Shown: positions 1-16,087, counted from the stretch's first letter. The stretch is 49,825 nucleotides of DNA from Methanobacteriota archaeon (GCA_005878955.1 VBMI01000097.1:1-49825), one strand, 5' to 3'. The notes: generated from the sequence alone by a model not told the origin. Numbers and translations are program-made.

Positions 1-2072
1 ATCCCGATGATCTGTACCGCGCCCGACCGGACTTCGGGCGAACCGATCGTGTTTGCCTGGACGAGGACGTCCGAACTCGAGTCCACGATCACGCCCCATG
101 CGCTCCCCACGAGAACGTTCGAGAGGAGATTGACGAACGACGCACCGAACAGGTTCACGCCCGCTTGGTTGCCCGATAGATGGTTTCCCCGGACGATCAC
201 GCCCGAGGTCTCGAAGACGAGAATCCCCGCGGCGTTGTAGCACGTGAGGTAATCCCCGCACGGGTCGTACCAGTTGTCGCTGACGGTGTTGTCCCTCACG
301 GTTCCGGCCGCGCCCCGGCTCACCTGGATCCCGTTCTGGGCGGTGACCCCAGTGGGTCCGGCGCCGACGACAATGTTGTTCTCAATCGTGGCGGAAGATC
401 CGGGGCCGTCGACTACAATGCCCCCCTTCTGGTAGCCCTGGATCGTGTTCCCCGAGATCGTCGCGCCCCCGGAGGTTTCGGCGAAGGCCTGCCCTACACC
501 GATGCCGACGCCGTTCTGGCACCCGCTAAAGGGCGTGTCCCGGATGTCGACGACGTGGTTGCCCGTGATGACTGCGTACCCGCCGCCGTCGACCAGGACC
601 CCGTATTCGATGCTGTCGCAGCTGCCGCCGCCCGGGCCGGAAATCGTGAAGCCTCTGATTTCGACGTCGCTCGATCCCGAGACCCGGACGATCGCTTTCG
701 CGCCCGTCATCGTGGCCGGCGCTCGGATCACGGCCTCGAGGGGCACGGTCGACACGAGGGCGAGACCGCTCCTCGTGGAGCCGGAGATCGTGACCTGCTC
801 GACGTACGTACCCGGGTCCACGTAGATCGTGTCCCCCGTGTGGCCGACCGTCACCGCGGGCTGGATCGTTCCGAAGCTCACATCGATGACGCCGTTGCTC
901 CCGATGTCCAAGTGGACCGGGCCGCCTCCGAGGCCCCCGCAGGGCGCAGGGGCGGGGACGGAGAGCCACGGCACGAAGTTCACGACGCTGTCCGGGTCTA
1001 CGATCGCGTCCCCCAGGCCGCCTAGGTTCGTCGGCGCGGCGGGGCCGGAAGCGCTCCCCCACCAGTTGCAGTCCGCTTGGAGGGTCCCGACGTAAGAGCC
1101 CGACACGACGCCGATTCCCGCGACCGTGTTCCCTACGATGTTGTTCTCGTGGACCGCGACGTTAGACACGACGCCGGGTTCGCCGAACGCGCCCGCATAC
1201 ACGCGAACCGCGCGGAAGTCGCCGGCGAAGAAGTCGTTCCCTACAATCGTCACGCCGTCCACGCCGCCGCCGAGAAAGACGGAACTCCCGCCGGAGTGTG
1301 ACCACGAGTTCCCGAGGATGAAGACGTGCGCCGCGTTGAAGAGGACGACGGAGCCCGCGTCGTCGGCGATCTCGTTGTTCGAGATCGTGAGGCCAGACTG
1401 GAGGCCCTCCGGCGGGGAGAACCCGCCGGCGAACACCATCGCGGCGGAGGCGTGCCCGGTGAAGCGGTTCCCGTCAATCGCGACATCCACCGCACCGAGA
1501 TCGGAGTAGATCGCGTCCCCGCTCGCGGCCCCTAGTTCGTTGTTGTCCCGGAACAGGTTGCCGGACACGGTGGTGGGGGACCCGCCCTGGCTGTTCAGGT
1601 AGACGCCGATCGTGTTGCCCTGGATGATGTTGTTCACCATCATATAGCCGGAGTGATCCCCGCTCGTCCAGATTCCCGCACCGAGGCTCGAGATCCCCGA
1701 GGCACCCACCACGCCCTCGATCGTGAACCCGTCGATGACGACGCCGTCCGCGAGGAGCTGGAAGGCCCCGTCCGTCGTCCCGACGATGGATTCGGACGCG
1801 CCGCCGCGGGCCCATCCGGCCACGCCCGCCTGGGCGCCCTTGAGTGTGATGCTCTTTGCCACGACGACGACCTCGGGGTACGTCCCGGCGTCGACGAGCA
1901 CGCTGTCCCCGTTGTTCGCGGCGTTCACGGCACCCTGGATCGTTCCAAAGTCGAAGTCGATGACGCCGTTGCTCCCCACATCCAAGTGGACGGGGGCTGC
2001 GGCGGGCTCGAAATCGTATGTGGTGGTCGAGGATCCCACGCCGATCAGGGGGAGTTCACAATCCGGGTCCCC
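1..2072 (-). CDS. Secreted right-handed beta-helix protein, C-terminal part (cut by window edge)
   Basis: Reading the minus strand from about 2072 down to base 1 gives one frame without stops, about 690 codons, that runs off the window. It is dense in short G-N-x-I/V and N-N-x-I units (for example ISGNTIQGYQKGG, VRGNHLSGNQAGV), the signature of parallel beta-helix (NosD/pectate-lyase-like) repeats. Two larger units begin alike, with HLDVGSNGVID and HLDIGSNGVID, each followed by FGTIQ and a GD...D.GTY segment. The domain has no start of its own: it continues the secreted N-terminal part at 2045-2752 through an apparent one-base frameshift near 2069-2072. A gene caller would probably begin it at a GTG near 2039. 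Such proteins are usually extracellular carbohydrate-binding or carbohydrate-processing surface proteins. The exact function, and any C-terminal sorting signal, cannot be seen. Confidence 0.85.
883..918. repeat. Internal direct repeat of the beta-helix gene, copy 2
   Basis: This 36-base segment matches 1957-1992 at 32 of 36 positions. Both encode the G-S-N-G-V-I-D start of a beta-helix unit, so the gene contains an internal duplication of a large unit of about 1.07 kb. Confidence 0.8.
1957..1992. repeat. Internal direct repeat of the beta-helix gene, copy 1
   Basis: Partner of 883-918, in the same orientation. It marks the start of the first large beta-helix unit, right after the secreted N-terminal domain. 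Confidence 0.8.
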
Positions 2073-2752
2073 GGCTGGGCAGCGGTGTAGCTCGCGAGGG
2101 TGACGAGGGGCGGGCCGAAGGACCCGGCATTGAGGGACCACCAGCCGCCGACAAGGGCGTCCCAGCCCTGCCACGTGTCGAGGACGGGCGCCCCCTGCGC
2201 CGGGACCGGGGCGCCGGAGTACGCACCGGTCTGGTAGCAGGGCTCGAAGAAGAGGAGGTCGTCCGTCACGCCGTCGAAGTTCCAGTCCACGTTCAGGATG
2301 AGGTACGGGGCTTGGCAGCCCGCGAAGACGGAGACGTACGTGTCGTAGCGCAGGGTCGTGAGCGAGGTGAGCGGGACCCCCGCGTAGCCCGGCTGCCGGA
2401 CTTGGACCCCGCCGTCGCCATTGCTCCCCACGGATAGCTCCAGGCTCCCCGCGCCCAGCGGGGACGTCCCCGGACCAACGACGCAGGCGCTCGAGGCGGT
2501 CAACGCGCCGCCGTCCGCCGAGGTCGAAACGACCCAGCCCGCAGGGGCGCTCGCGGAGACGACGATCAGGCCCGCCGGCGGGAGAGCGGACGCGACCATG
2601 GGTGCCAGGGCGAAGGCAATGAGCAGACCGAGGACGACCATCGAGGGGGGTCCCGTTGCGGACCGCCGACGCCCGGTGCTCCACCCGATCTGGGTCCGCC
2701 TTCGTTCCACACCCGAAGCCACGCGCCGAGCTATAGCTGTCTCAAAAGCCAC
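2045..2752 (-). CDS. N-terminal part of the beta-helix protein: signal segment plus beta-rich domain
   Basis: This 235-residue frame starts with GTG at 2752, preceded by GGGAGGGG on the minus strand. Internal GTGs at 2722 and 2710 are alternatives, and a CTATAG box at 2731-2736 would suit 2710. A basic region leads into a hydrophobic signal segment (MVVLGLLIAFALAP, then ASA). A beta-rich domain follows, containing NVDWNFDGVTDD, which resembles a Ca-binding D-x-D-G loop. The frame ends in a TGA at 2045, just after ..PGTRIVNSP. The overlapping frame reads ..GDPDCELPLIGVGSS and leads smoothly into the beta-helix domain, so this is best read as the 5' part of one gene of more than 2.7 kb. Either the gene is a pseudogene or the base is missing only in the assembly. 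Confidence 0.75.
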   Translation of the reverse strand: MAFETAIARRVASGVERRRTQIGWSTGRRRSATGPPSMVVLGLLIAFALAPMVASALPPAGLIVVSASAPAGWVVSTSADGGALTASSACVVGPGTSPLGAGSLELSVGSNGDGGVQVRQPGYAGVPLTSLTTLRYDTYVSVFAGCQAPYLILNVDWNFDGVTDDLLFFEPCYQTGAYSGAPVPAQGAPVLDTWQGWDALVGGWWSLNAGSFGPPLVTLASYTAAQPGTRIVNSP

Positions 2753-2982
2753 GTCTACCCCTCCCTAACTCCTCCTTACGGAGCAAACCCCTCGAAGAAG
2801 CCCCGCCGCCGCGGGCGGCACCCCTCCGGACGAGGCATCTCGGTTGCTTCTATTTCATCCTGCCGTGCGTTTGCATATTGGACGCGGAGTCGGATGCACC
2901 CCTTTCGACACGGCGGGCGGAAACGCGTCATCGGGGGATGCGAAGGCACGGGTCACTTTCGGCCACCTCCCCCACGGGGCCC

Positions 2983-2990
2983 CAAATACG
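2983..2990 (+). promoter_or_regulatory. Candidate TATA box of the 3014 gene
   Basis: CAAATACG lies about 28 nt before the ATG at 3014 in otherwise GC-rich DNA, consistent with leaderless transcription. Confidence 0.4.
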
Positions 2991-3013
2991 TCGCAACATC
3001 TGGGGCTGAGCCC

Positions 3014-3475
3014 ATGGGCTACGACGATCTCAAGGAGTTCGAGGGCGACGAATACACGGGGATGTCCGTCGGCGGGGAACATTCCTGGATCTACCCCCAC
3101 GGCCTCTGGCGAGAGCGGAAGGTCGCCCCGGACCGGTGGGAGTTCACGTTCACCTCCTTGAAAGAGCGGGAGAGGAGCGCGCCGGAAGGTTCGGGGGTCC
3201 CGCCGAAGACGCAATATCACTGGTACATCCTCGCACACCAGCGGGTCCGGAAGATCGACCAGGACACATACCACACGTTCATGTCGGGGGTCAAATACAG
3301 GATTGCGCACCGGAGGCCGCAGTGGCGGAAGTGGAGCTCCGAATACCCGGGGCAGGCCTCCGAGCGCGACCGGGTCACCGCGATCCTCGAGGCGACCCTC
3401 GCGGGCCTGGAGGGAGGAACCTCGCCCCCTAGGCAGCTCGTCCTCGTCGAGGCCGCTCCGGGCGAGAACCGCTAG
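3014..3475 (+). CDS. Hypothetical protein, 153 aa
   Basis: I do not recognise this family. The ATG at 3014 is chosen over the upstream in-frame ATG at 2894 because the CAAATACG element at 2983-2990 lies about 28 nt before it, as expected for a leaderless archaeal transcript, and because the extra 40 residues are low-complexity and proline-rich. The product is soluble and charged, rich in W, Y, H and R (YHWYILAHQRVRK, HRRPQWRKWSSEY), with an acidic N-terminus (MGYDDLKEFEGDEY). It has no signal peptide, membrane segment or cysteine cluster. Its 3' end overlaps the convergent acetyltransferase gene by 4 bases. Confidence 0.7.
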   Translation: MGYDDLKEFEGDEYTGMSVGGEHSWIYPHGLWRERKVAPDRWEFTFTSLKERERSAPEGSGVPPKTQYHWYILAHQRVRKIDQDTYHTFMSGVKYRIAHRRPQWRKWSSEYPGQASERDRVTAILEATLAGLEGGTSPPRQLVLVEAAPGENR

Positions 3476-4056
3476 GTCCTGCGGCGCTTCCCTTTCGACA
3501 CCGGCTTTCGCGGGAGCCTTCGGGCGGGGATCGATACCGTCTTCCGATCGTGGGCGCACCAGTTCCTCGCGTCGAGCGGGCGCCCGCATTCGCAGACCCA
3601 CCCGATAATTCTGGCGGGGACCCCCGCGACGAGGGCGTGCGCGGGCACATCCTTGGTCACGACGGCCCCCGCCGCGACCATCGCACTCCGTCCGACCGTG
3701 ACCCCGCACAGGATCGTCGCGTTCGCTCCGATCGATGCGCCGTCCTCCACATGTGTGGGGACGATCTCCCAGCCCGTGGAGTCCGCCCGCGGATACAGGT
3801 CGTTCGTGAAGCACGCGTGGGGGCCGACGAACACCCGGTCCCCGATCGTCACGCCCTTGTAGATCGTCGCGAAGTTCTGGACCTTGCATCCGTCCCCAAG
3901 GATCACGTCCGCGTCGATGTAGGCGTCCTTCCCGATGCGGCAGTCCCGCCCGATGCGGGCGCCCTCGCGGACCTGCACCCAGTGCCAGATTTGCGAGCCC
4001 TCGCCGATCGTCGCGTCCGGGGAGACGTCTGCGGTCGAGTGGATGCGGGATGCCAT
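3472..4056 (-). CDS. WbpD/WlbB-like sugar N-acetyltransferase, left-handed beta-helix
   Basis: The 194-residue product is built of hexapeptide repeats ([LIV]-G-x4: IGEGSQ, IGRDCR, IGKDAY, ILGDGC, IGDRVF). It has the FTNDLYPRA segment of the WbpD/WlbB family, which acetylates UDP-2-acetamido-3-amino-2,3-dideoxyglucuronate or related UDP-3-aminosugars using acetyl-CoA. The typical ending AGVPARIIGWVCECG carries clustered Cys (CECG, then WC), as family members do. The start is ATG 4056; an ACTTTAAGTT element at 4084-4093 lies about 32 nt upstream. It is a single divergent gene beside the glycan operon and probably modifies a nucleotide sugar for it. The exact substrate is inferred: the whole WbpD-like group shares these motifs. 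Confidence 0.88.
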   Translation of the reverse strand: MASRIHSTADVSPDATIGEGSQIWHWVQVREGARIGRDCRIGKDAYIDADVILGDGCKVQNFATIYKGVTIGDRVFVGPHACFTNDLYPRADSTGWEIVPTHVEDGASIGANATILCGVTVGRSAMVAAGAVVTKDVPAHALVAGVPARIIGWVCECGRPLDARNWCAHDRKTVSIPARRLPRKPVSKGKRRRT

Positions 4057-4211
4057 TCGAGGGGGCGTGAAGCGAGGCTGCTGACTTTAAGTTTGGCACG
4101 AAGCCTCCGCCGACTTGGCTCCTACAATCGAAAGCGCAGACCCGGAGCCGCCAGGAATCGAGCGGCCAACCGTCGATCGCGACCGGGCGTCTCAACTTCG
4201 TTCGCCAGGGG

Positions 4212-4787
4212 ATGGCCTTCGAGGGCCGTCCGATAAGCCTTATGACGCGAGGAGAAGGTCGGGAGCGACCATCAGTCTCAAGGGGGAGGTCTTCCGCGGT
4301 CGCGAACGGTGACGGTTGGAGAGCGAAGCTCGTCCGATGGTTCGCCTACGGCCAGCCGGACGAACCGTACAAGCCCCCTCAGAAGCGGACGTGGGCAGAG
4401 AAAATCACCGATGACGGGAACGCCTGGCTCCTCGCGCGGCGCTTGGAACTCGAGGGCGACCTCCTCGGAGCTACGCGCGCCTACGCGCAAGACGGGGAGT
4501 TCTGGCGGGGGCAGGGCCACTACGCCCGCGCGGCGCTGAGCACCGCCTCCGCCGCGCGGTGTTTGGAGATCCGGGGAATCGACCCCCTCCTGGGCTTTAC
4601 ACGAGCGGGGGCCTTGTATGTGGAGGCGGGCAAACAGGCGCTCGACCGAGACCCGCGGGAAGCCCTTCAACTCTTCGAGCTCGCGACGGAGTGCTTCGCC
4701 CGCTCGGGCAACGGCGGGCAGGCGGAGGCGTCCGCGATTTGCGACTCTCTGAGGAACGCGCTGGACTCCTCACGCGGCCACCGGTGA
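4212..4787 (+). CDS. Helical-repeat (TPR-like) protein upstream of pelF
   Basis: A protein of up to 191 residues whose C-terminal 120 residues are alternating amphipathic helices (ARRLELEGDLLGATRAYAQ, ARAALSTASAARCLEIRG, EALQLFELATECFARSG), like TPR repeats. There are no membrane segments. The first 35 residues are basic and low in complexity, so the start is uncertain: ATG 4212, ATG 4242 or later. It ends 6 bases before the PelF-like gene and is clearly co-transcribed with it. In bacterial pel operons the TPR protein PelE supports PelF and PelG, so this could be a position-matched scaffold, but no sequence likeness to PelE is claimed. Confidence 0.65.
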   Translation: MAFEGRPISLMTRGEGRERPSVSRGRSSAVANGDGWRAKLVRWFAYGQPDEPYKPPQKRTWAEKITDDGNAWLLARRLELEGDLLGATRAYAQDGEFWRGQGHYARAALSTASAARCLEIRGIDPLLGFTRAGALYVEAGKQALDRDPREALQLFELATECFARSGNGGQAEASAICDSLRNALDSSRGHR

Positions 4788-4793
4788 GCCCGC

Positions 4794-6242
4794 ATGCGCG
4801 TTCTGTTCCTCGTGTCCGGGGTGTACCCACACTACATGGGCGGGGTGTCCACGTGGGCCGACCAGCTCGTCCGTGGGATGGGGGAGCATGAATTCCACGT
4901 CGTCAGCGTCGTGAGCAATCCCCACGTCGAGGTGCGGTACGCCCTCCCGTCGAACGTGAAGGAAATCATCACGGTCCCGCTATGGGGGACCGAGAAACCT
5001 GAGGAGTACCTTCCCGGCTCGCTGTCCGAGACGCTCCGGAACCGCTGGCGGACGACAGAGGGGACGGTCCGCGCGGACTTCGTGCACCACTTCGAGACCT
5101 TCCTGGAGGAGGTCAAGGTCGCGACGCCGGCCCCTCCGCGGCTCGCGGAGGCCCTCTACGGAATGCACCGTTTCCTCCTCGACCACGACTTTCGCGGCAC
5201 GATGCGCTCACGCGCCGTGTGGGACAGCTTCCGCGGGATGCTCGACCGTGACCCACTCCTCGCCTCAATGGACCTCTACGAGGCAATCGACACGCTCCGG
5301 TCCCTAGGCCGCTACCTCCGCGTCCTGAATGTGCGACCGCCGGCGGCGGACATCGCCCACGCTGCGATCGCGTCCGTCGCCGGGCTCATCGGGATCATGG
5401 CCCACATGGAGGACGGCACCCCGAACATCCTGACGGAACACGGCGTGTACGTGCGGGAGCGGATGCTCGACCTCATCAACCAGCCGATCAGCCCCCGCGC
5501 CCGCGTCTTCTGGACGAACTTCCATGCCGCGCTCGCAGCATTGAACTACCACTACGCGGAACGCGTGTACCCCGTCTGCACGTTCAACTCCCGGTGGGAG
5601 GACCGATTCGGGGTCCCTCGCGAGAAGGTGCACGTCCTCTACAACGGGGTGGACGGGGAGACGTTCCGGCCGCGGGAGATCCCGCGGCCCCACCCGGGGC
5701 CCACGGTCGTCGCGGTGATCCGAATCGACCGGCTGAAGGATGCCCTGAACCTGATTGAGGCGATGGGGTACGTGCGCGAAGCGATCCCAGACGCGAAATG
5801 CCTGATCTACGGACCGTCGCCGGACGCGGACTACGCGCGCCTGTGTGTCGCCGAGCGGGCCCGCCGAGGGTTGGACTCTGCCGTCGAGTTCTGCGGGTTC
5901 ACCCAAGAACCGGAGGTCGCCTACAACCTGGGAGATGTCGTCGTCCTGTCGAGCGTGTCCGAGGGATTCCCTTTCGCATTGCTCGAGGGCATGGCGAGCG
6001 GGAAAGCGGTCGTCGCAACGGATGTGGGCGGCGTCGCGGAGGCGCTCGGGGACACGGGCCTCTTGGTGCCTCCTCGGCAGCCCCGGAGGCTCGGGGAGGC
6101 GGTCGTCCGCGTGCTGAAGGACCCCGAGCTTCGCCGGGATCTGGGCGCGAGGGCGCGGTCCCGCGCGACGGGAAAGTACGGGCTCGGCGAGTTCATCGAT
6201 GCCTACCGGCGCGCGTACGCCGAGGTCGGAGGTGCCTCGTGA
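4794..6242 (+). CDS. PelF-like GT4 glycosyltransferase
   Basis: This 482-residue protein has the layout of PelF, the cytosolic GT4 enzyme that polymerises the Pel exopolysaccharide in bacteria. It starts MRVLFLVSGVYPHYMGGVST, has a long insert (about residues 60-195, as in the PelF-specific N-terminal domain), then LTEHGVYVRER, closely matching the PelF LTEHGIY-x-x-ER motif, then a GT4 C-terminal domain with the donor loop ESVSEGFPFALLEGMASGKAV-like segment (S-E-G-F-P then E-x7-G-x-x-V-V-A-T). PelF itself uses UDP-linked sugars; the sugar here is unknown. The stop overlaps the start of the PelG-like gene (TCGTGA), which implies coupled translation. The PelF identity is strong on motifs and neighbours; the function in an archaeon is inference. 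Confidence 0.85.
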   Translation: MRVLFLVSGVYPHYMGGVSTWADQLVRGMGEHEFHVVSVVSNPHVEVRYALPSNVKEIITVPLWGTEKPEEYLPGSLSETLRNRWRTTEGTVRADFVHHFETFLEEVKVATPAPPRLAEALYGMHRFLLDHDFRGTMRSRAVWDSFRGMLDRDPLLASMDLYEAIDTLRSLGRYLRVLNVRPPAADIAHAAIASVAGLIGIMAHMEDGTPNILTEHGVYVRERMLDLINQPISPRARVFWTNFHAALAALNYHYAERVYPVCTFNSRWEDRFGVPREKVHVLYNGVDGETFRPREIPRPHPGPTVVAVIRIDRLKDALNLIEAMGYVREAIPDAKCLIYGPSPDADYARLCVAERARRGLDSAVEFCGFTQEPEVAYNLGDVVVLSSVSEGFPFALLEGMASGKAVVATDVGGVAEALGDTGLLVPPRQPRRLGEAVVRVLKDPELRRDLGARARSRATGKYGLGEFIDAYRRAYAEVGGAS

Positions 6243-7831
6243 CCCCGCCGGAGCGGCTGGCCCTCGAGGCGATTGCGAGAACCGTCTCGGAGATCGAGCC
6301 CCACCCAAAGGACCTCCTCGAAACCGCGGTCGTCCTGGAGATCCTCGGGTATTCGGACTCGGACGCCCGCGCCCTCGGGTTCCGAGACGTTTTTGATCTG
6401 GCCGATGGGGTTCGGGGGATCGTCCTGCCGTACGCGTGGGACGAGCCGCTCCGGGAGCCCCCCCGCGCGCGGGAGAGCGGCGTCCGCCTGTACCTCTCCG
6501 GGCTGTTCTACAACGTCGGCTGGGTGATCATGCTCATCGCCCTGTTCCTCGGCGGCCAGTCGCTGTGGGCCGCTCGGGACCTCCCCGTCTCGGTGGGTAC
6601 CGCAATCGGGCTCGGCGTCGTGCTGGGGCTCGTGTCGACGGGCGGCCTCCAGCAGTTTGCCGCGTGGAAGCTCATCTACTACCACCTGCAGGGAAACCGT
6701 CCCCTGGCGAAGTTTGTGATGGAGCGCACGCTCGTCTTCGGTGGGATCATCGTCGTCGTCCTATCGGCGGGGTTCTTCGCGGTGGCGGCGACCGTGATCG
6801 GGCTCCCGTTGGAGATGGCCGCCCTCGGAAGCCTGTACCTCACGCTCATCGGGTTCTACCGCCTGGCGATGGCGCCCGTGTATGCCATGAGAAAGTTCGT
6901 CGCCCTCATCGTCATCTCCGTCCTCGCGCTCGCCGCGATGTTCGGCATCTACCGGGTCCTCGTCTTTGGCGGCGTGGACCGCCCCCTCGCAGTGATCGCA
7001 TCGCAGGTGGCCGGGCTCGGGGTGATGCTGGGGACGAGCGTCGCCTCGATGAACGCGTTCGTGTTCGCGGACCGGGACGAACCACGTCGGCCCGAGGACC
7101 CGCCCTTCTACGCCGCGCACGAGCTCCCGAAACACGTGAACCCACCGAGGTTCTGGGTCCTCGTCGTCGAGGGCGTGCCGTACCTGCTGTACGGGACGAT
7201 GTACTTCGTGTTCCTGTTCGCGGACCGCCTCGTGTCGTGGTTTGGAGGCCCGGGGCCCTTCGCGATTAACTACAATGGGCCGTATCAAATCGGGGTCGAC
7301 CTAGCGCTCCTCATGCTCGTGCCCATCACGGCGGTAAAATTCCCGCTCCTATATCGGTTCTCGGAGGTCCTCGAGAAGATCTCGAAGGCGGCCCCCGCGG
7401 TTGGGCCGGACCTGTTCACACGCGGGGTCGCGGCGTTCCACAACCGCCTTACGCTCCGGGTGGCCGCAGCTGCGGTCTCGTTCGCCGGGGTCGCATTCCT
7501 TTTCGGACCCGAGATTGTCGGTTTCGCGGGCGGGGACTCGCGGAGCGTCCTCGTCTTCCGCATCGCCCTCGTAGGTGTGGTCCTGTTCTCCCTATACCTG
7601 AGCAACGCGGTGTTTGCGATGGCTTTCCGGCGAATCGGCGCGATGGGGATGTTCCTCTTCGTCGGGGCCATCCTGAACTACGGCCTGAGCGCGTTCTTCG
7701 CAGCGAACCTGGGAACGAACGCGGCGGTGCTTGGATTCCTACTCAGCTCGTTCTTCCTCGCGGTCGCTTCGTTCGCGTACCTTCTTGGACTGCGGCGGTC
7801 CCCCGACTACGCATACTATTCCGCGTTCTGA
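6239..7831 (+). CDS. PelG-like polysaccharide transporter, 12 TM
   Basis: The start is GTG 6239, overlapping the PelF-like stop. The 530-residue product has a soluble N-terminal stretch of about 80 residues and then about 12 hydrophobic helices in two blocks, the number expected for PelG, the MOP-family inner-membrane protein that works with PelF to synthesise and move the Pel polymer. The seventh helix ends FLFADRLVSWF, similar to the acidic-basic pair in the equivalent PelG helix. Sequence likeness to PelG is weak by eye; the call rests on topology, length and the overlap with pelF. A more distant MATE/Wzx-type flippase is the alternative. No PelA, B, C or D homologue follows, so an archaeal export path through one membrane would need only these two. 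Confidence 0.7.
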   Translation: MTPPERLALEAIARTVSEIEPHPKDLLETAVVLEILGYSDSDARALGFRDVFDLADGVRGIVLPYAWDEPLREPPRARESGVRLYLSGLFYNVGWVIMLIALFLGGQSLWAARDLPVSVGTAIGLGVVLGLVSTGGLQQFAAWKLIYYHLQGNRPLAKFVMERTLVFGGIIVVVLSAGFFAVAATVIGLPLEMAALGSLYLTLIGFYRLAMAPVYAMRKFVALIVISVLALAAMFGIYRVLVFGGVDRPLAVIASQVAGLGVMLGTSVASMNAFVFADRDEPRRPEDPPFYAAHELPKHVNPPRFWVLVVEGVPYLLYGTMYFVFLFADRLVSWFGGPGPFAINYNGPYQIGVDLALLMLVPITAVKFPLLYRFSEVLEKISKAAPAVGPDLFTRGVAAFHNRLTLRVAAAAVSFAGVAFLFGPEIVGFAGGDSRSVLVFRIALVGVVLFSLYLSNAVFAMAFRRIGAMGMFLFVGAILNYGLSAFFAANLGTNAAVLGFLLSSFFLAVASFAYLLGLRRSPDYAYYSAF

Positions 7832-7861
7832 CCGGCGTTCTAATCGGCGTTCCAATCGGGT
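7826..7861 (+). repeat. Three-copy 12-base tandem repeat across a stop codon
   Basis: TTCTGACCGGCG, TTCTAATCGGCG and TTCCAATCGGGT follow each other directly. The first copy contains the TGA of the PelG-like gene. It could be slippage debris or part of the 3' end of the transcript. Confidence 0.7.
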
Positions 7862-8008
7862 CTTTTGTCGGTCGGTTCCTCGGAGAGAGTGCACAGGCAG
7901 CGCATTCGCAATGGATGAGCTCGGTCCCCAGCATCCCACGTTCACACCGCGCGTAGGGTACCCTTATAAGAACCTCGGCATTCTCACACCCGAAAACGAG
8001 GCCATCAG

Positions 8009-8016
8009 CCTTTAAG
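8009..8016 (+). promoter_or_regulatory. Candidate TATA box of the glycan operon
   Basis: CCTTTAAG lies about 29 nt before ATG 8042, the leaderless spacing seen elsewhere here. A second box, TTATAA at 7964-7969, would give a leader of about 50 nt. Confidence 0.45.
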
Positions 8017-8041
8017 CGGAAGGCGCTGGCTGGGCGAAGGG

Positions 8042-9127
8042 ATGAACATCGGCTCCCTAGAGGACATCCTGTCCCCCGCGTCCCAGATGCTCCTGCTCGC
8101 AATCGGGATGGCGTTCACGTTCTCCCTGGCGATCGCGGTCATCGCGCTCCCCGGGCTGATCAAGAAGATGCGGCAGGGCGGGATGGTGGGCAAGGACGTG
8201 AACAAGCCCGGGGATGTCCACGTCCCCGAGCTCGGCGGGATCGCCGCGGTGTTCGCGTTCACGATCTCCCTCTCGCTCGTCATCGGGATCGAGAAGCTGG
8301 CGGGCAACATCTTTGAACCCCCGTACCTCGCGGCGATCTCCGTGTTCTTCATCGCCTCGATGATCGGCTTGATCGATGACATCTCGAACATCAAGCAGCG
8401 GGTGAAGGCGATTGCCGTGGTCTTCGCAAGCCTCCCGCTCCTCCTGGTCCACTTTAAGAACGGGGGCAATGGCGTCGGGGTCATCGACACCGCCGTGAAT
8501 GCCTTCATCGCCCTCCCCCTCGGCGGGAAACTCCCGTTCGAGTGGTTCCCGTATCTTTACTGGTTCCTTCTCGTCCCCATCGGCGTGACCGGCGTGTCGA
8601 ACGCGATGAACATGTCCGCCGGCTACAACGGCCTCGAGAGCGGCCAGATCGCGATCGTGAGCGGGTTCTTGCTCGCGGTTTCCGCCTTCAAGGGCACCCT
8701 CGAGTCCGTCCTGATCTTCGCGTCCCTGACGGGAGCGGCCTTGGGGCTGTACATGTTCAACCGACATCCGGCGCGGGTCTTCATCGGGGACATCGGTACC
8801 CTGGGGCTCGGTGCGGCGATTGCGGCTGGCGCCGTCATCGGTGGGATCGAGGTGTACGGGTTCATCGCGATCGCCCCCGCTTTCTACGAGGCGGCGTCCA
8901 CGTTCTACTACTCCGTCATCCGGAAGGTCCCCGACCGCCGCCACGCGTGCCACAACCCGGTCATCCGAGACGACGGCACCCTGGAACCGCCGAAGGGCGC
9001 CGAACGCTACACGCTCGCGTACTGGCTCCTCTCGAGACGCCCGATGACGGAACGGAGGCTCGTGCGGGTCCTCCTCACGCTCTACGCCGCAGCGGGGGTC
9101 GCCGCACTCGCGCTGAGCGTGCTGTGA
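8042..9127 (+). CDS. Lipid-phosphate sugar-1-phosphate transferase (WecA/Alg7/MraY family)
   Basis: An integral membrane protein of 361 residues with about 10 helices and the family motifs in order: VNKPGDVHVPELGG near residue 53, the catalytic Asp pair in GLIDDISNIKQR near 115, NAMNMSAGYNGLESG near 187, and FIGDIGTLGLGA near 248. It transfers a sugar 1-phosphate, typically GlcNAc-1-P from UDP-GlcNAc, to a polyprenyl or dolichyl phosphate, the first step of a lipid-linked glycan. The N-M-x-x-G-x-N-G-L-E form is nearer the eukaryotic/archaeal Alg7 and AglH side than bacterial MraY. It is the first gene of an operon with no gap longer than a few bases down to about 17.6 kb, so it probably primes that glycan; it might also serve N-glycosylation. 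Confidence 0.92.
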   Translation: MNIGSLEDILSPASQMLLLAIGMAFTFSLAIAVIALPGLIKKMRQGGMVGKDVNKPGDVHVPELGGIAAVFAFTISLSLVIGIEKLAGNIFEPPYLAAISVFFIASMIGLIDDISNIKQRVKAIAVVFASLPLLLVHFKNGGNGVGVIDTAVNAFIALPLGGKLPFEWFPYLYWFLLVPIGVTGVSNAMNMSAGYNGLESGQIAIVSGFLLAVSAFKGTLESVLIFASLTGAALGLYMFNRHPARVFIGDIGTLGLGAAIAAGAVIGGIEVYGFIAIAPAFYEAASTFYYSVIRKVPDRRHACHNPVIRDDGTLEPPKGAERYTLAYWLLSRRPMTERRLVRVLLTLYAAAGVAALALSVL

Positions 9128-10009
9128 ATGAAGGCGGGAAAAGGACTCCGAGGCACCGCCCGGAGGGCGTCCCTCCTCCCCGCGCGGTATGGACTCACCC
9201 CGGACAAGCTCCGGACCCGAATCCGAGCGATGACGGCGGACCTCTCCCGGTGGGAGGCCACGCCGACCGTGCCCGTAACCGCGAACGCCTTGGACCGCCA
9301 TCCCGAAATCGCCGGGGACCTCGTCGGGTGCGATTCCGCGATTCATGGATACCGCCACGTTCGCTACGCGGGTCTGTCCGAAGCGGCGCAGTCCCACGAC
9401 CTCGACCTTGCGTCCCGGGCGTTCCGAAACCACCAGGTCCCCGTCCAGGGGTTCCGAGCCCCGTATCTGGCGGCGGACGCCACGACCCGCGCCCTACTGA
9501 AGTCGCGCGGGTTTGCGTACGACTCGAGCTCCCCTTCCATGGCCCTTCCGACGGACCACCCCGCTGCTGGAGAGATCGTCCGACTGGCGGAGGCCCGATA
9601 CGGGGACGTGCCGAGCGGACCCGCGAGGCCTACGCTGGAGGGGGGCCTTGTCGAACTCCCCGTCGCGCTCCCGGACGACGAGATTCTCATCGATGGACTG
9701 GGAATCGACAATGAAGAAGGACTCGGGCGTATCTTCCAGGCAATGCTAAGACCCGCCCTCGATGCGGGGGCCCTCCTTGTCCTCCAGATCCACCCGGAGC
9801 GGTTCCACCTGTGCTCCAAGGCAATTGAGGGGGTCCTCCGGTCCGCGACGGACGGGGGCGCGTGGATTGCCCCCCTGTCCGAGATTGCCTCGCACGTCCG
9901 CGCCTCCCCCAGCGGCTGGCCCGCCGGCCACGCGATGGCCCTTGCGGTGACAGGGGACCTGGACGCCGTTTCTTTGCTCGACTTCGCGCGCCGCGTGTGG
10001 GAGGGCTGA
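9128..10009 (+). CDS. Polysaccharide deacetylase-like (CE4/NodB fold) protein lacking motif 1
   Basis: The 293-residue product carries CE4 landmarks: RYGLTPDKL, ANALDRHPEIAGD, the metal-binding HGYRH, the GFRAPYL motif and a late LQIHPERF. CE4 enzymes remove N- or O-acetyl groups from glycans using a metal held by Asp-His-His. Here the usual N-terminal T-F-D-D (or DVE) segment with the catalytic and metal Asp is missing; the protein begins where the region after it would begin. The ATG at 9128 directly follows the previous stop (TGAATG), so a longer protein is not possible without a frameshift. It may be inactive, use another acid, or bind glycan only. Deacetylases of this form sit beside FemAB genes in bacterial exosortase loci, as here. 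Confidence 0.78.
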   Translation: MKAGKGLRGTARRASLLPARYGLTPDKLRTRIRAMTADLSRWEATPTVPVTANALDRHPEIAGDLVGCDSAIHGYRHVRYAGLSEAAQSHDLDLASRAFRNHQVPVQGFRAPYLAADATTRALLKSRGFAYDSSSPSMALPTDHPAAGEIVRLAEARYGDVPSGPARPTLEGGLVELPVALPDDEILIDGLGIDNEEGLGRIFQAMLRPALDAGALLVLQIHPERFHLCSKAIEGVLRSATDGGAWIAPLSEIASHVRASPSGWPAGHAMALAVTGDLDAVSLLDFARRVWEG

Positions 10010-10011
10010 GC

Positions 10012-10989
10012 GTGGACATCACCGCGGACCTCTCGGACACGGAGTGGTCCTCGTTCCTCTCCCAGGCGCCCGACGCCAACATCTTCCAGAGCCCGCTCCT
10101 TGCGCGGGCCTTCCGCCGTGCACGGGGGCACCGGCCGCACGTCCTCGCTGCGCTCTCGGGGGGCGCGGTGCGGGCGCTTCTCTCTGGCGTGATCGTCTCG
10201 TATTCGAAGGGTCGCGTTTCCCCCATGACATCCCGTGCAATCGTCGCGGGAGGGCCCATCGGCAATCCTACCGCGTTCCCCGCCCTGCTCGCTGCCCACG
10301 ACGCCGTCGCCGCGAAGAGAGCGCTCTTGACCCAGATCCGGAACCTGCGCACGCCGCCGGACGGGCGTCCGTTCGAGACCGCGGGGTACCGATGGGAGGA
10401 CCACCTCAACTTTGTTCTCGATCTACGCGCGGGTGAGGAACCCGTGCTCGCGGGGATGTCCAAGGCCCGGAGGAAGGGGATCTCTCGAGCAGAACGGTCC
10501 GGCCTCACGGCCCTGGAGCCGGGGCTCAATGACGTGGATTCCTTCTACCCGCTCCTCCTTGGAACGTATGAGCGGGCGAAAGTCCCGCTCGCGGACGCCA
10601 CCCTCTTCCGGTCGGTCTTCGAGGCCTCGGAGGGCGGGGAATGGCTGTGGGGCCTCACCGCCCTCCATGAGGGGCGACCGTGCGCGGTCCGCCTTTGCCT
10701 CCGATCGGGGCCCGTCGTATACGACTGGTACGCGGGCTCCTCCGACGAGGGACGGTCCCTCCACGCGGACGAGTGGCTCGTGTGGGAGGTCCTGCGGCGC
10801 GCGATCCGCGCGGGGTGCACGGCCTTCGACTTCCAGGGAGCGGGCGCTCCCGGGGAGGCGTACGGCCCCGGGGAGTTCAAGCGCCGCTTCGGCGGGGCGG
10901 AGACGAACCCGGGTCGCTTTGAGAAGGTGTACCGCCCGCTGACTCTCAAGGTGTCGAAGATCGCGTACGAGCTGTGGAGGCGGTGGTGA
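10012..10989 (+). CDS. FemAB-like (GNAT-fold) acyltransferase 1
   Basis: The GTG start at 10012 lies 2 bases after the previous stop; the product is 325 residues. It shows the double-GNAT pattern of FemAB/FemX proteins: NIFQSPLLARAF at the start, a basic KARRKGISRAERSG segment mid-way, VVYDWYAGSS, and the diagnostic end AFDFQGAG..GEFKRRFGG. FemAB proteins transfer amino acids from aminoacyl-tRNA to peptidoglycan peptides. Archaea of this kind lack murein, and the related FemAB proteins of exopolysaccharide/PEP-CTERM loci have no fixed substrate. Aminoacylation of an aminosugar is a reasonable guess given the DegT gene nearby. It is a distant paralogue of the gene at 11657, and its stop overlaps the methyltransferase start by 4 bases. 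Confidence 0.82.
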   Translation: MDITADLSDTEWSSFLSQAPDANIFQSPLLARAFRRARGHRPHVLAALSGGAVRALLSGVIVSYSKGRVSPMTSRAIVAGGPIGNPTAFPALLAAHDAVAAKRALLTQIRNLRTPPDGRPFETAGYRWEDHLNFVLDLRAGEEPVLAGMSKARRKGISRAERSGLTALEPGLNDVDSFYPLLLGTYERAKVPLADATLFRSVFEASEGGEWLWGLTALHEGRPCAVRLCLRSGPVVYDWYAGSSDEGRSLHADEWLVWEVLRRAIRAGCTAFDFQGAGAPGEAYGPGEFKRRFGGAETNPGRFEKVYRPLTLKVSKIAYELWRRW

Positions 10990-11654
10990 CGGCGGGCCCG
11001 GAGTCCGCCAACGACCCCTGGACGGAGTATATCGATTCCGCCCTCGTGTGGGCCCCCCTCGAAGGCGTGCACCTCCGGGAAGGCGCGCGCGTCCTCGACG
11101 TCGGGTCCGGGGACGGGCGCATCACCGCCCGCCTGCGCGCCCGGGGGTTCCGAGCCATCGGGGTCGAGCTCCGGCCGGGGCCCGGGGCGGACGTCATCGC
11201 CCGCGCGGAGGCGCTCCCCTTCCGCTCCGAGCGCTTCGAGCTCGTCCTCATGGTGCTCGTCCTCATGCACATCCCTGAGGCGCGACAGGCGTTGCAGGAG
11301 GCCCACCGGGTCACCAGGCCGGGCGGGAGGATCCTCGTGTCCGTCGGGAACCGGCGGAGCTTCACGGCGCTCGCGCTCCGGGAGGAGAGCCCGCGGTTCC
11401 TCGGGCGCAAGGTCCCCTACGACCACTACCGATCCTACACGGAGCGGACCCTTACGGGAGCCCTCGAGGCGGTCGGCTTCCGGGTCCGCTCGGTCCGCTG
11501 CGTCACGTACATTCCGCGGGTTTTCGGCAAGGCGCCCCGCCCGCTGCTGCGGGGACTCATCCCCCTCGTGCGCGGGCTCGAGGAATCGATCGCCCGCGTG
11601 CCCCTGGTCGGGAAGGTCGGGGTCCGCCTCGTGGCGATTGCGGAGAGGCCCTGA
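10986..11654 (+). CDS. Class I SAM-dependent methyltransferase
   Basis: The start is taken as GTG 10986 because it overlaps the previous stop (GTGA); GTG 10974 and 10983 are in-frame alternatives. The 222-residue product has the SAM-binding motif VLDVGSGDGRIT near residue 40, an acidic end of strand 2 (GVELRPG), motif ALPFRSERFELV near 81, and the RPGGRILVSVGN strand. This is the Methyltransf_11/UbiE-like type. In this operon it most likely methylates a sugar or an acyl group on the glycan. The substrate cannot be read from the sequence. It lies between the two FemAB-like genes, so the three products probably act on one modification. Confidence 0.85.
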   Translation: MTAGPESANDPWTEYIDSALVWAPLEGVHLREGARVLDVGSGDGRITARLRARGFRAIGVELRPGPGADVIARAEALPFRSERFELVLMVLVLMHIPEARQALQEAHRVTRPGGRILVSVGNRRSFTALALREESPRFLGRKVPYDHYRSYTERTLTGALEAVGFRVRSVRCVTYIPRVFGKAPRPLLRGLIPLVRGLEESIARVPLVGKVGVRLVAIAERP

Positions 11655-11656
11655 GG

Positions 11657-12670
11657 ATGACCGACATCGAGGTCGATCCGGGGAGGGAACGGCTCCGGGC
11701 CGCCTGGCGGGCCCTGGGGCGCGACGGGTTCTACCAGGACCCCGAGTACGGGGACCTCTACGAGGCGACGACCCGCCACGAGGCCGTCCGCGCGATCGCC
11801 TGGTCGGGGGACGCACCGGTCGGCTTCGCGCAGGCGATCGTCTTCCGCGAAGGGCCCAAGCTGGTCGGCTCCCTGGGGATCCACGCGACGATCCGCCACG
11901 GCCCCGTCTTCCCGAAGGGGGGCCGGCGGGACGATGCCCGCGCCCTCCTCGAGGGGCTCGTGGAGGGGCTCCGACCCCGGGTCGCCTATCTGCGCGTCTA
12001 TCCCGGGAGGGAGGACGTCCCGGGGCCCGCCTTTGCCTCCGCGGGATTCAAGAGGACCGCCTGGCTGAACTATTACGTGGACCTGACCGGCACGGAGGGC
12101 GAGGTCCTCGAGCGGGTCTCCAAGAAGAGGCGGTACGGCATCCGCAAGGCGACCGACCGCGGCATCGCGGTCCGGGAGGCCTCGTCCGTGGCGGACGTCC
12201 GCGAGGCGCACCGCCTGCTCGCCGCGACCCATGCGCGTGTCGAGTTCCCACTGGAGCCACAGGCCTTCTTCGAGCGGGCGTTCGAGCGGTTCCATCCGCG
12301 GCGCCTGCGCGTCTTTCTTGCGGAACTCGGCGGGAGACCTCTGGCGACGACCGTCGTCGCTGTCGACGGGACGGCCGCGGTGAATTGGTTCGCCGGCTCC
12401 GAGCTCGAACCTGAGACCTCCAAACTCTACCCGAACGACGCGGTGCTCTGGGCGGCCATCCGCTGGGCGAGATCCCAGGGACTCGCTTGTTTCGACATGG
12501 GGGGTGGCGGGCCCCCCGAGAACCTCGCGGGCTTCGTCGACTTCAAGCGCCAGTTTGGCGGGCGGGAAATCGACGTGGGGCAATACACGTTCGTCCCCTC
12601 CGAGTGGAAGCTCGCCGTCGCGGGCAGGGGCTTCGAACTCCTCCGCAAGATCCGGGGGATGCGGCGATGA
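11657..12670 (+). CDS. FemAB-like (GNAT-fold) acyltransferase 2
   Basis: The product has 337 residues and an ATG start 2 bases after the methyltransferase stop. It has the same layout as the gene at 10012: FYQDPEYGDLYEA at the start, the basic SKKRRYGIRKATDRG segment, AVNWFAGSELE, and the ending CFDMGGGG..VDFKRQFGG. It is a second member of the FemAB/lipid II aminoacyltransferase-like family. The two copies are well diverged, so they probably add different residues or act in sequence rather than serve as backups. It overlaps the DegT gene by 4 bases (ATGA). The substrate is unknown; a surface glycan or its lipid-linked precursor is inferred from the operon. Confidence 0.82.
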   Translation: MTDIEVDPGRERLRAAWRALGRDGFYQDPEYGDLYEATTRHEAVRAIAWSGDAPVGFAQAIVFREGPKLVGSLGIHATIRHGPVFPKGGRRDDARALLEGLVEGLRPRVAYLRVYPGREDVPGPAFASAGFKRTAWLNYYVDLTGTEGEVLERVSKKRRYGIRKATDRGIAVREASSVADVREAHRLLAATHARVEFPLEPQAFFERAFERFHPRRLRVFLAELGGRPLATTVVAVDGTAAVNWFAGSELEPETSKLYPNDAVLWAAIRWARSQGLACFDMGGGGPPENLAGFVDFKRQFGGREIDVGQYTFVPSEWKLAVAGRGFELLRKIRGMRR

Positions 12671-13854
12671 ACCGCACCGACGTCCCGCGCCGGCAACTCC
12701 GGCCCCGCCTCCCCGTGGCCTTCAACGGCGGGGACTTCCTCTCCACAATCCGGAAAGGGGAGCGGGGTCCGGGCCGGTCGTGGCCCGCGGGGGATGCGCG
12801 GACCTTCCTCCTCTCCAGCGGGCGCGCTGCATTGTGGCTGTTGCTGAAGGGACTCGGCTTGCCCGCCGGCGCCCGTGTCGGCGTCCCGCTCTTCTGTTGC
12901 GAGGCGGTCTTCGAGGCGGTCGAGCGCGCGGGGTGCGCACCGACGTTCCTCGACGTAAATCCCGAGACCTTCGTGCTGGACGCGGAGGACGCGTCGGTTT
13001 CTGTCGACGCGGTCGTCGCCGTCCACCTCTTCGGGAACCCCGTCGATCTCACCCGTCTGCGATCTCCCCGAGGCGCCCCGGTCGTCGAGGATTGCGCCCA
13101 CAGCTTCTTCGGGGAGATCCACGGAACCCCCGTCGGCTCCCTCGGGGTCGGCGCGATGTATTCGTTCGGACTGGGGAAGCCCGTGTCGTTGGGACGCCTA
13201 GGGGCGGCCGTGACGAGGACCACTGGCCTATCGGAACGGGGGCAAGACCTTCATCGCTCCCTCCCCGCCGAGGGGGCGCGCGGGAAGGTCTCGCGGGCGG
13301 TGACCTCGAAGCTCGTCGCCGCCTTGTACCGGGAGCCCTGGTACGGGATGTTCGCGTTCAAGGTCGCCCAGCAATACGAGTCCACGATCGACCCGATGGG
13401 GAAGGAGGCCGCGAGCTACCAGGCGGCGCCTTCGGAACTCATCGGGATCGTCGCCGACAAGGTGGACCGGTACAGGGGGACGATCGAGGCCCAGCGGGAC
13501 GCATGGAAGCATCTCGCGGATGTGGTCGCCGACGTCTCCAAGAATCGATTCGTGCCTCAGGCGACGACGAAGGGCTGCATCTCCGACCGGTGGCTCTTCG
13601 CGCTCCGATGCCCGTCCACGCGAGACCGGGACGAGCTGGTGGACCGGCTCGGCCGACAAGGGGTCGACTCCATCAAGTTCTACGACCGCGTGCCGGCCAT
13701 CGCCAGAGAGCGGTTCGGGTACAAGGGCGGCGCCCCCAGCGCGGAGTCGCTGTGCAAGTCCACGGTGGTGGTCCCGGTGCGCGTCCCCACCGACCGCGAC
13801 GACGGCGGTCGTCTCGCGGCCGCGCTCGCCAACGCGATCCGGGGTGCGGGATGA
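12667..13854 (+). CDS. DegT/DnrJ/EryC1/StrS-family aminotransferase
   Basis: The 395-residue product follows the PLP sugar-aminotransferase pattern: LSSGRAALWLLLKGL near residue 53, GVPLFCCEAV, FLDVNPETF near 100, AVVAVHLFGNP, VVEDCAHSFFGE near 140 and YSFGLGKPVSLGRLGA near 162. The Lys of the last motif is the expected Schiff-base residue, although the following G-E-G-G of classical members is replaced by G-R-L-G. Family members aminate keto-sugars on a nucleotide, or act as PLP dehydratases or epimerases. The product would supply an aminosugar for the FemAB-like enzymes just upstream. It overlaps both neighbours by 4 bases. Confidence 0.85.
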   Translation: MNRTDVPRRQLRPRLPVAFNGGDFLSTIRKGERGPGRSWPAGDARTFLLSSGRAALWLLLKGLGLPAGARVGVPLFCCEAVFEAVERAGCAPTFLDVNPETFVLDAEDASVSVDAVVAVHLFGNPVDLTRLRSPRGAPVVEDCAHSFFGEIHGTPVGSLGVGAMYSFGLGKPVSLGRLGAAVTRTTGLSERGQDLHRSLPAEGARGKVSRAVTSKLVAALYREPWYGMFAFKVAQQYESTIDPMGKEAASYQAAPSELIGIVADKVDRYRGTIEAQRDAWKHLADVVADVSKNRFVPQATTKGCISDRWLFALRCPSTRDRDELVDRLGRQGVDSIKFYDRVPAIARERFGYKGGAPSAESLCKSTVVVPVRVPTDRDDGGRLAAALANAIRGAG

Positions 13855-14897
13855 ACGTATCGATCGAGGTCGGCCACCCGGCGCATGTGCACTACTGGCG
13901 GTGGGTCCGCCAGGGGCTCCTGGATCGCGGGCATCGGGTTAGCGTCCTCGCCCGGGGGAAGGAGACCACCTTCCGCCTCCTGGACGCCCTCGGGATCCCC
14001 TTCGTGGAGGTCGGCCGCAACTACCCTACGATCGTCGGGAAGGGCCTTGGGATGTTCGCGAACAGCTGGGACGTCCTTCGAGAAGCGACACGGGAGGGGG
14101 TCGATATGATGCTCAGCGGCGGGATGCCGTACAGCGCCCAGGCGAGCGCGATCCTCGACGTCCCCCACCTCGCGATCATCGACACGGAGCACGCGTCCCT
14201 CACGCTCGCGGCGACGATCCCGTTCACGGACGTCGTGTGCACCCCGGCCTGCTTCCGCAGGTCGTTCCGAGGACCGAAGCACGCGCGCTTCCGGGGCTAC
14301 GTGGAGAGCATGTACCTCCGGCCCGAGCACTTCACGCCCCGGATGGAGGTCCTCGACCGCCTCGGCCTCGAGGCGGGCACCCCCTTCAGCGTCGTCCGAT
14401 TCTCGTCCTGGGACTCGAGCCACGACATGTTCGCGGTCCGGACCGGCCTCGAGACCGTCGCCGGACGCGAGCGTCTCGTCCGGGAACTGGAAGCGTTCGG
14501 CCCCGTGTTCGTGAGCAGCGAGGTCCCGCTCCCCGCGTCGATGGAACGGTTCCGGCTCACCCTCCCGCTCGAGGACATCCATTCCCTGCTCCACTACGCC
14601 TGGCTCTCCTGCGGGGAGGGCGCGAAGATGGCAGCGGAGGCGGGCGTCCTTGGCACCCCGTGGCTGTACATCGCCCCCGTGGGGCGGAGCTACCTCGATG
14701 AGCAGGAGTCCGCCTACGGGCTCGGTCGGACCGTCGGGGACCTGGGTTCGGCGATCGCACAGGCCCGGGCCTGGCTTGGGATGCCGGACCTGAAGAAAGA
14801 ATGGGCCAAGAAGCGGGAGAGGCTCATCAGTGACACAGTAGATGTCACCCAATTCGTGCTCCGGGAGATTGACGAGCTCGCGAGGAGAGACACGTGA
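13851..14897 (+). CDS. DUF354 protein, GT-B-like
   Basis: The 348-residue product starts MNVSIEVGHPAHVHYWRWVR, typical of the DUF354 family: a G-H-P-A-H-x-H segment, then GHRVSVLARGKETTFRLLD, and a C-terminal half with LSCGEGAKMAAEAGVLGTPW, like the donor-binding region of MurG/UDP-GlcNAc 2-epimerase-fold proteins. DUF354 genes are common in archaeal and bacterial polysaccharide loci. No biochemical role is firmly assigned; a glycosyltransferase or an epimerase of the GT-B fold are the likely options. It overlaps its neighbours by 4 bases on both sides. Confidence 0.85.
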   Translation: MNVSIEVGHPAHVHYWRWVRQGLLDRGHRVSVLARGKETTFRLLDALGIPFVEVGRNYPTIVGKGLGMFANSWDVLREATREGVDMMLSGGMPYSAQASAILDVPHLAIIDTEHASLTLAATIPFTDVVCTPACFRRSFRGPKHARFRGYVESMYLRPEHFTPRMEVLDRLGLEAGTPFSVVRFSSWDSSHDMFAVRTGLETVAGRERLVRELEAFGPVFVSSEVPLPASMERFRLTLPLEDIHSLLHYAWLSCGEGAKMAAEAGVLGTPWLYIAPVGRSYLDEQESAYGLGRTVGDLGSAIAQARAWLGMPDLKKEWAKKRERLISDTVDVTQFVLREIDELARRDT

Positions 14898-16087
14898 CCG
14901 CGCTGGACGTCCATGGGCGGACGGGCGGCACGACCGGGCCCATCCCCATCGCGTACATCGTGTCGATGGCGTCCGGGCTCCACAGCTTCGTATTTCGCGA
15001 GATCCGCGAACTCTACGGTCTGGGCTTCGCCGTCCGGATCTTTCCCACCAAGGTCGCGGCCGGGCCGTACATGCCGTTGGCGGGGTGGCCGGTCGACCGA
15101 CCCACCCCCGCGGGCTTCGTCCGCGGCCACGCCCGCATGATCCTCGGGCGCTTCCCGGAATACATGCGTTCCCTGCGGGAGGCCCTTCGATTCCGGGCCC
15201 TCGCGGACTTCGCGCTCGCGGGGTTCTTCGCCGCGCAGGTGGAGCGTTTCGGGGTCGAGCTCGTGCACTGCCATTTTGGCGACCACAAGCTCTTCATCGG
15301 GTACTTCGTGGGCCGGCTGTCGGGACGACCCGTCACGGTCACGATCCACGCGTACGAGCTCTACGACAATCCGAATCCCCGGCTGTTCGCCCGCGCCCTC
15401 GAGGCGGCGGCCGCGATTGTCACGGTGGCCGAGCACAATCGCGGGGTCCTCGCAGAGAGATGGAACGTCCCCCGTGAGAGGGTCGCGGTGATTCCGCTGT
15501 TCGCGGACCTGCCGTCGGGCTCGAATGGGGGCCCGTCAACGCGCAGAAGCAAGACCGTCCTCACCGTCGCGAGGTTCGTCGAGAAGAAGGGGCATCGCAC
15601 GCTCTTCCGCGCCCTTGCGGATCTCCCCCACGACTGGGAGGCGTGGCTGATCGGCGACGGGCCCCTCGATATCCGAGGGCTCGCGGCATCCCTCGGAGTC
15701 GCGGACCGGGTGCGGGTCCTCGGCCGGGTGACGGACCGGGAACTCCAGGAGGCCTATCGGACGGCGACCGTGTTCTGCCTACCCTCGGAACGCTCGGAGA
15801 CCGGGGACCAGGAGGGCGTGCCCGTCGCTCTTATGGAGGCGATGGCCGATGGGCTCCCCGTGGTGGCGACCCGACATGCGGGGATCCCGGAGCTCGTCGA
15901 GGAGACCCTTGTGGAAGAGGGGGACGCGACAGGACTCGCTCGCGCCCTCCAACGCATCGGGGAGGATCCTGCCCTCGCCGCCAGACAGGGCCGCCGAAAC
16001 CGGGAGATTATCGAGTCCCGATTCTCCCGGAGAAACGTTTTTCAACTAAAGCAATTGTTCGAGGGGCTGGTCAATGATCCTCGCTAA
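14894..16087 (+). CDS. GT4 glycosyltransferase
   Basis: The start is GTG 14894, overlapping the DUF354 stop. The product has 397 residues with a GT-B fold: IAYIVSMASGLHSFVFREI at the start, VHCHFGDHKLF, VTIHAYELYDNPN, then VLTVARFVEKKGH (the GT4 second-domain entry near residue 220), and the donor motif EGVPVALMEAMADGLPV with RHAGIPELVE. The layout fits retaining GT4 enzymes of the WcaL/AmsK/EpsF type, which extend exopolysaccharide repeats on the cytosolic face. The C-terminal end is intact (REIIESRFSRRNVFQLKQLF), unlike some of the GT4 genes downstream. It overlaps the following membrane-protein gene by 14 bases. Confidence 0.9.
   Translation: MTALDVHGRTGGTTGPIPIAYIVSMASGLHSFVFREIRELYGLGFAVRIFPTKVAAGPYMPLAGWPVDRPTPAGFVRGHARMILGRFPEYMRSLREALRFRALADFALAGFFAAQVERFGVELVHCHFGDHKLFIGYFVGRLSGRPVTVTIHAYELYDNPNPRLFARALEAAAAIVTVAEHNRGVLAERWNVPRERVAVIPLFADLPSGSNGGPSTRRSKTVLTVARFVEKKGHRTLFRALADLPHDWEAWLIGDGPLDIRGLAASLGVADRVRVLGRVTDRELQEAYRTATVFCLPSERSETGDQEGVPVALMEAMADGLPVVATRHAGIPELVEETLVEEGDATGLARALQRIGEDPALAARQGRRNREIIESRFSRRNVFQLKQLFEGLVNDPR

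Follow-up and report, generated by a model that had tools for sequence, protein, structure and literature searches.

The DNA analysed is a stretch of 49,825 nucleotides from a Methanobacteriota archaeon (hereafter, the window). Three same-strand open reading frames are found where the initial annotation had placed a PelF-PelG pair preceded by a helical-repeat gene (Table 1). The genes are tightly packed, with a gap of 6 nt between the helical-repeat gene and pelF, and the overlap described earlier, in which the pelF stop codon and the GTG start of the PelG-like gene share the sequence GTGA, is confirmed at positions 6239-6242. Chance open reading frames are excluded since a second archaeal genome, CP070739.1, has orthologues arranged in the same way. 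The frames are open and their GC3 resembles that of the neighbouring genes.

Table 1. Genes and domains of the window that are discussed in the text, with positions counted from its first nucleotide
Feature	Position	Strand	Evidence
Sugar acetyltransferase-like gene, divergent, upstream of the three-gene set	3472-4056		
Soluble helical-repeat (TPR/SNAP-like) protein, 191 aa	4212..4787	+	Orthologue in CP070739.1
PelF-type GT4 glycosyltransferase, 482 aa	4794..6242	+	NF038011, DUF3492, conserved residues, tree
PelG-like 12-TM MOP-superfamily protein, predicted exporter, 530 aa	6239..7831	+	hhalign, AF2 model, Foldseek
N-terminal soluble helical domain of the PelG-like protein, ~residues 8-56	6260..6406	+	Common to bacterial PelG-like proteins
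Membrane phosphoglycosyltransferase (GPT/MraY-like), outside the conserved core	8042..9127	+	PF00953, 99 bits
Polysaccharide deacetylase-like protein, possible modifying enzyme, outside the conserved core	9128..10009	+	PF01522, E 7.8e-7; HGYRH (HxxxH) motif
Wzx-type MOP flippase	22149-23666		

The glycosyltransferase had been taken for PelF on account of the segment LTEHGVY-x-x-ER and a long insert preceding it. Both are present, the segment reading LTEHGVY-VR-ER, and the profile search places the protein within PelF, not outside it. Against the NCBIfam equivalog NF038011 (PelF; cut-off 100 bits) it scores 166.4 bits, residues 3-475 aligning with positions 2-489 of the 489 in the model, and the PelF of CP070739.1 scores 181.8 bits. 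The N-terminal domain of PelF, Pfam DUF3492, is matched at 158.7 bits (cut-off 23.3), and the families ranking after PelF remain far under their respective cut-offs. The tree described below agrees with this assignment. An alignment of 87 proteins of the PelF lineage, the canonical ones included, shows that the window PelF retains H189, H216, G217, E222, K315, E390 and E398. The UDP-binding lysine and the EX7E motif are likewise in place (R310, K315, E390, E398), and from what is known of the family the protein should be an active retaining GT4. Two residues before K315, archaeal PelF carries an arginine where 95% of the lineage has proline.

The membrane protein encoded by the third gene matches no Pfam or NCBIfam model, the Pfam PelG family PF16933 included, and family-wide and profile-profile tests were therefore used. 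Its counterpart in CP070739.1 reaches 18.2 bits against PF16933, under the cut-off of 29 bits. Among 56 members of the PelG-like family, 26 match PF16933 (best 6.9e-8; the window protein is not one of them) and none matches any other MOP family of Pfam. Aligned by hhalign with canonical PelG, the PelG-like profile gives 93.9-95.6% and is colinear across the membrane domain, over about 400-413 columns. The Wzx protein of the window, used as a control in the form of a single sequence, gives 0.2%, but single canonical PelG sequences score low too, so that profile depth matters for this control. BLAST relates the window protein to membrane proteins adjoining pelF in many bacteria, at 22-30% identity, mostly over the full length, the smallest E value being 1e-36 in a small database. 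Twelve long helices are seen in the AlphaFold2 model (pLDDT 88, pTM 0.84), and every PDB match listed by Foldseek is a MOP protein of the MATE, Wzx or MurJ type (E down to 1.7e-6); a sequence search of the PDB found no PelG relatives.

A helical domain of ~60 residues precedes the first transmembrane segment of the PelG-like protein; E34 and F52, which lie in it, do not vary among the 56 sequences. Canonical PelG, in contrast, is membrane domain from its very start and has no such N-terminal helical domain. A signature consisting of D[RK], then W, then Y[EDQ] is common to the archaeal PelG-like proteins (FADRLVSW..YQIGVD), their bacterial relatives (FVDRMIAW..YELGLD) and canonical PelG (WLDKFMFW..YDIPVF). 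Thus, of the earlier identification with PelG, the 12 transmembrane segments, the MOP fold, the position directly after pelF and a remote homology hold, whereas strict membership does not, PF16933 not being matched. Nor is the protein closer to unrelated flippases lacking a conserved pairing, as PelG is the sole MOP family that its relatives match and the pairing is kept in CP070739.1. Judged from its sequence, it is not a canonical PelG but a homologue from a sister clade that has its own N-terminal domain. In both archaeal PelG-like proteins E350 is replaced by Q and E368 by F, at positions that are acidic in 96% of the family; these replacements may alter the translocation path.

PelE consists of N-terminal transmembrane helices and a TPR domain, and the helical-repeat gene had been likened to it because of its place in front of pelF. 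The comparison fails. Alignment with canonical PelE by hhalign gives a probability of 1.1% (with a profile of two sequences), inspection reveals no transmembrane segment, and the CP070739.1 orthologue likewise has 0 TM. The identity with PelE is therefore rejected; at most, a general TPR-like solenoid shape may be shared. No Pfam family is matched above cut-off (SNAP, 15.4 bits versus 25). The AF2 model, built from two sequences only, shows paired helices over residues ~61-190 with a local pLDDT of about 90, and its fold matches, to Sec17/SNAP and TPR proteins, are weak (best E 2.2e-3). The orthologue has nothing corresponding to the first ~55 residues, for which the model is also of low confidence, so the true start of the reading frame may be further in. 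The protein occurs in 2 of the 61 genomes searched, precisely those with the PelG-like gene, and an iterated profile run over 80 bacterial loci returned the archaeal orthologue only. It is an archaeal-specific partner of the PelF-PelG pair.

The second genome, CP070739.1 (Methanomassiliicoccales archaeon isolate bin396, a single contig), comes from another family than the source archaeon and carries the same three genes in the same order, separated by a 14-nt gap and then overlapping by about 20 nt. Identity with the window proteins is 53% for PelF, 47% for the PelG-like protein and 34% for the helical protein. Directly upstream of the set lie an archaeal glmU (TIGR03992, 346.8 bits; cut-off 292.1) and glmS. 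GlmU and GlmS lead to UDP-GlcNAc, the precursor of UDP-GalNAc.

The search for the same set in other Thermoplasmatota thus yielded one further genome, hundreds of others being without it. The PelG-like gene is present in 2 of 400 genomes of the class. With a wide profile it was found, apart from noise, in 1 of 390 genomes of the phylum, a sample in which CP070739.1 gave no row; the further archaeal candidates retrieved this way were near-threshold matches of 50-70 residues and were judged to be noise. One of the 390 phylum genomes passes the PelF cut-off. When 84,980 species genomes were scanned, CP070739.1 was the sole archaeon, by title, among the best 80 PelF loci; the first filter consisted of two exact peptide patterns, so that other archaeal PelF proteins may have been missed.

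The two archaeal PelF proteins group together (support 100) on a long stem in the PelF tree, inside a non-canonical bacterial PelF clade (92) and outside the PelF of classical pel operons (99), and they are nested in no sampled bacterial phylum. The PelG tree is concordant. Both are quick trees with long branches, so that it is uncertain where precisely the archaeal clade belongs. They are compatible with an ancient transfer or with donors outside the sample, but not with recent acquisition from one of the bacterial groups included. Both archaeal pairs lie within a non-canonical bacterial PelF-PelG lineage, and the bacterial loci closest to theirs are not classical pel operons.

The initial annotation had also declared PelA, PelB, PelC and PelD absent. 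Canonical PelD is a c-di-GMP receptor with a GGDEF domain, the canonical Pel product is a partly deacetylated alpha-1,4 GalNAc/GalN polymer, and PelB and PelC, which serve outer-membrane export, are not expected in a single-membrane cell. The part of the claim that stands concerns GGDEF and GH114, the two domains searched for: neither occurs in the assembly of the source archaeon (2.15 Mb, 87% complete) or in that of CP070739.1 (81% complete). Control by c-di-GMP through a classical PelD is therefore unlikely. As for the deacetylase and GH114 activities of PelA, a deacetylase-like gene follows the set in the window only, being absent from the neighbours of the set in CP070739.1, and its product may or may not act on the polymer.

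The next same-strand gene, encoding the GPT-like enzyme, starts 210 bp after the set; it too is not near the set in CP070739.1. Because the downstream genes differ between the two archaea, the conserved core is the set of three. Two FemAB/GNAT-type transferases (9862-10989 and 11657-12670) stand beside an aminotransferase and a methyltransferase in this archaeal glycan locus. Farther on, the minus strand at 26327-27526 encodes an archaeosortase-family protein (TIGR04178 above cut-off, artC-like) with an additional C-terminal RING-like Cys/His-rich stretch, CGICAD..CECGKFYHVACAATVEECPRC. Positions 1-4056 and most of the 24-42 kb segment match two genomes of the same genus, which offer no substantial match for 4056-16000; in the same-genus genome G001, other glycosyltransferase and glycan genes stand behind the same left flank. 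With both flanks matched and ~4057-16000 unmatched, the three genes lie in a glycan island of variable content, on a chromosome native to the archaeon.

It is probable, in our estimation, that the three genes specify a minimal synthase-exporter, which would make and export a HexNAc polymer independently of c-di-GMP. PelF, a cytoplasmic GT4, would polymerise an N-acetylhexosamine from its UDP-activated form, with UDP-GlcNAc or UDP-GalNAc as the likeliest donor. The PelG-like MOP protein would bind PelF at the membrane and pass the growing chain out across the single archaeal membrane. The helical-repeat protein would be a cytoplasmic adaptor keeping PelF on PelG, free of c-di-GMP control; this role, similar to the one that PelD and PelE share in bacteria, is proposed because the conserved set consists of F, G and one small helical protein. 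What the analysis establishes is the family of PelF, the MOP fold with its remote PelG homology, the conserved tight gene set, the glmU-glmS neighbours in one genome and the lack of a GGDEF hit; polymerisation, the identity of the sugar, export and the adaptor function we infer. Consistent with the proposal, PelF scores above cut-off in both archaea, the gene order is conserved across two families, and glmU-glmS adjoin the set in CP070739.1 much as galE and glmS adjoin a canonical pel operon in Paraburkholderia. Moreover, a GH114 endo-alpha-1,4-polygalactosaminidase is encoded at several bacterial loci with the broader non-canonical PelF lineage. Against it stand the need of canonical Pel for PelD and PelE, neither of which is seen here, the loss of the acidic residues E350 and E368, the lack of GH114 in both genomes, the small number of archaeal examples (n=2), and the setting of the window genes in a general glycan island, with an MraY/WecA-like enzyme but without glmS-glmU next to the set.

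This setting suggests another interpretation, in which the PelF-like GT4 extends a dolichol-linked glycan begun by the MraY/WecA-like enzyme encoded from 8042, and the product, still linked to its lipid, is flipped by the PelG-like MOP protein in the manner of Wzx or MurJ, for an exopolysaccharide or surface glycan. The proximity of the GPT-type gene, the wealth of GT4 and sugar-nucleotide genes in the window and the presence of Wzx and MurJ among the nearest PDB folds are in keeping with it. We nevertheless regard this main alternative as unlikely: the window already has its own Wzx-type flippase, the GPT gene is not kept with the set in CP070739.1, the 56 PelG-like relatives match no MOP family of Pfam other than PelG, and the GT4 is an orthologue of PelF. 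It is less probable still that a polymer is made and exported but consists of sugars other than amino sugars, glmU-glmS being incidental. The bacterial PelF/PelG-like lineage may use other sugars, as its nearest loci differ from classical pel operons and are flanked by a variety of genes, and the arginine near K315 in archaeal PelF would accord with this; yet glmU-glmS directly adjoin the set in one archaeon, and GH114 lies beside several relatives. An assembly contaminated with bacterial DNA, or holding a decayed recent transfer, would account for the very patchy distribution but is rejected as highly improbable because both flanks match same-genus archaeal genomes; the open frames with neighbour-like GC3, the second copy in a single-contig assembly and the grouping of the two archaeal orthologue sets in one clade outside all sampled bacterial phyla also oppose it.

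On the minimal synthase-exporter reading, a Pel-like polymer of amino sugars may be produced in some archaea by a much reduced machinery. A bolder version, which we advance only tentatively, is that archaea have a Pel-like synthase-exporter of their own that separated long ago, with a soluble helical-repeat protein of archaeal type standing in for both PelD and PelE, and that this three-gene, c-di-GMP-independent assembly is the smallest Pel-type system known. If true, synthase-dependent Pel-type export would be extended to archaea. Pel is a major bacterial biofilm polymer; how PelF and PelG cooperate with each other and with their regulators is, to our knowledge, unsolved, and archaeal matrix polymers are poorly known. 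A natural three-gene version lacking the c-di-GMP receptor would reveal the minimal requirements of a Pel-type machine and offer a simple target for reconstitution and structure determination. The glycosyltransferase gene is discoverable, as automatic annotation with the NCBI PelF model would name it. No description of Pel in archaea was found in the literature searched, subscription papers being mostly outside the reach of the search, and the archaeal set, its partner protein and the PelG sister clade appear to be undescribed.

Compared with known systems, the PelG-like protein shares its fold with the Wzx, MurJ and MATE flippases of the MOP superfamily but has no sequence-family match with them. 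On plasmids of Deinococcus, Streptomyces, Thermus and Kocuria (loci L125, L127, L130 and L134), PelF is accompanied by a partner annotated as "hypothetical protein", with a GH114 polygalactosaminidase close by. As in the archaea, PelF is immediately followed by another gene, and the partners of Deinococcus, Streptomyces and Thermus match the PelG-like profile; the plasmid loci differ in their long branches and in the nearby polygalactosaminidase.

A bacterial PelF and PelG-like lineage is widespread outside canonical pel operons (L044-L122, e.g. L045:7968-15006 and L121:6347-16052). These loci, from Bacillota, Campylobacterota, Chloroflexota, Kryptonia and others, belong to the same lineage as the archaeal one and have the same exporter N-terminal domain, but other partners, none of them with the archaeal helical protein. 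In Bacillota the order is PelF, a ~360-aa gene product, the PelG-like protein and a ~660-aa protein with 10-12 TM and no Pfam family; in Sulfurimonas it is OEP, PelF, PelG-like, OmpA, a 724-aa 12-TM protein and an HD-domain protein. The nearest bacterial loci have varied neighbours, such as SDR, nucleotidyltransferase and oxidoreductase genes. Gram-positive loci with pelF and pelG only have been reported (PMC7112194, S3 Fig), in a bacterial survey that does not mention archaea.

In bacteria, PelF is recruited to the membrane by PelD, PelE and PelG, and soluble purified PelF alone is inactive (PMC8461298). Pel production in B. cereus requires D, E, A-DA, F and G, the need for PelD and PelE having been demonstrated by deletions (PMC7112168). 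Measured against the PelDEFG core (pelABCDEFG in Pseudomonas, pelDEADAFG in Bacillus cereus), the archaeal system differs in its host, in an exporter from a sister clade with an N-terminal domain, in the lack of PelE homology, and in that GGDEF and GH114 were not found in the archaeal genomes. It shares with that core the PelF GT4, a 12-TM MOP exporter encoded directly after pelF, the overlapping or tightly packed genes and, in one archaeon, adjoining genes for amino-sugar supply.
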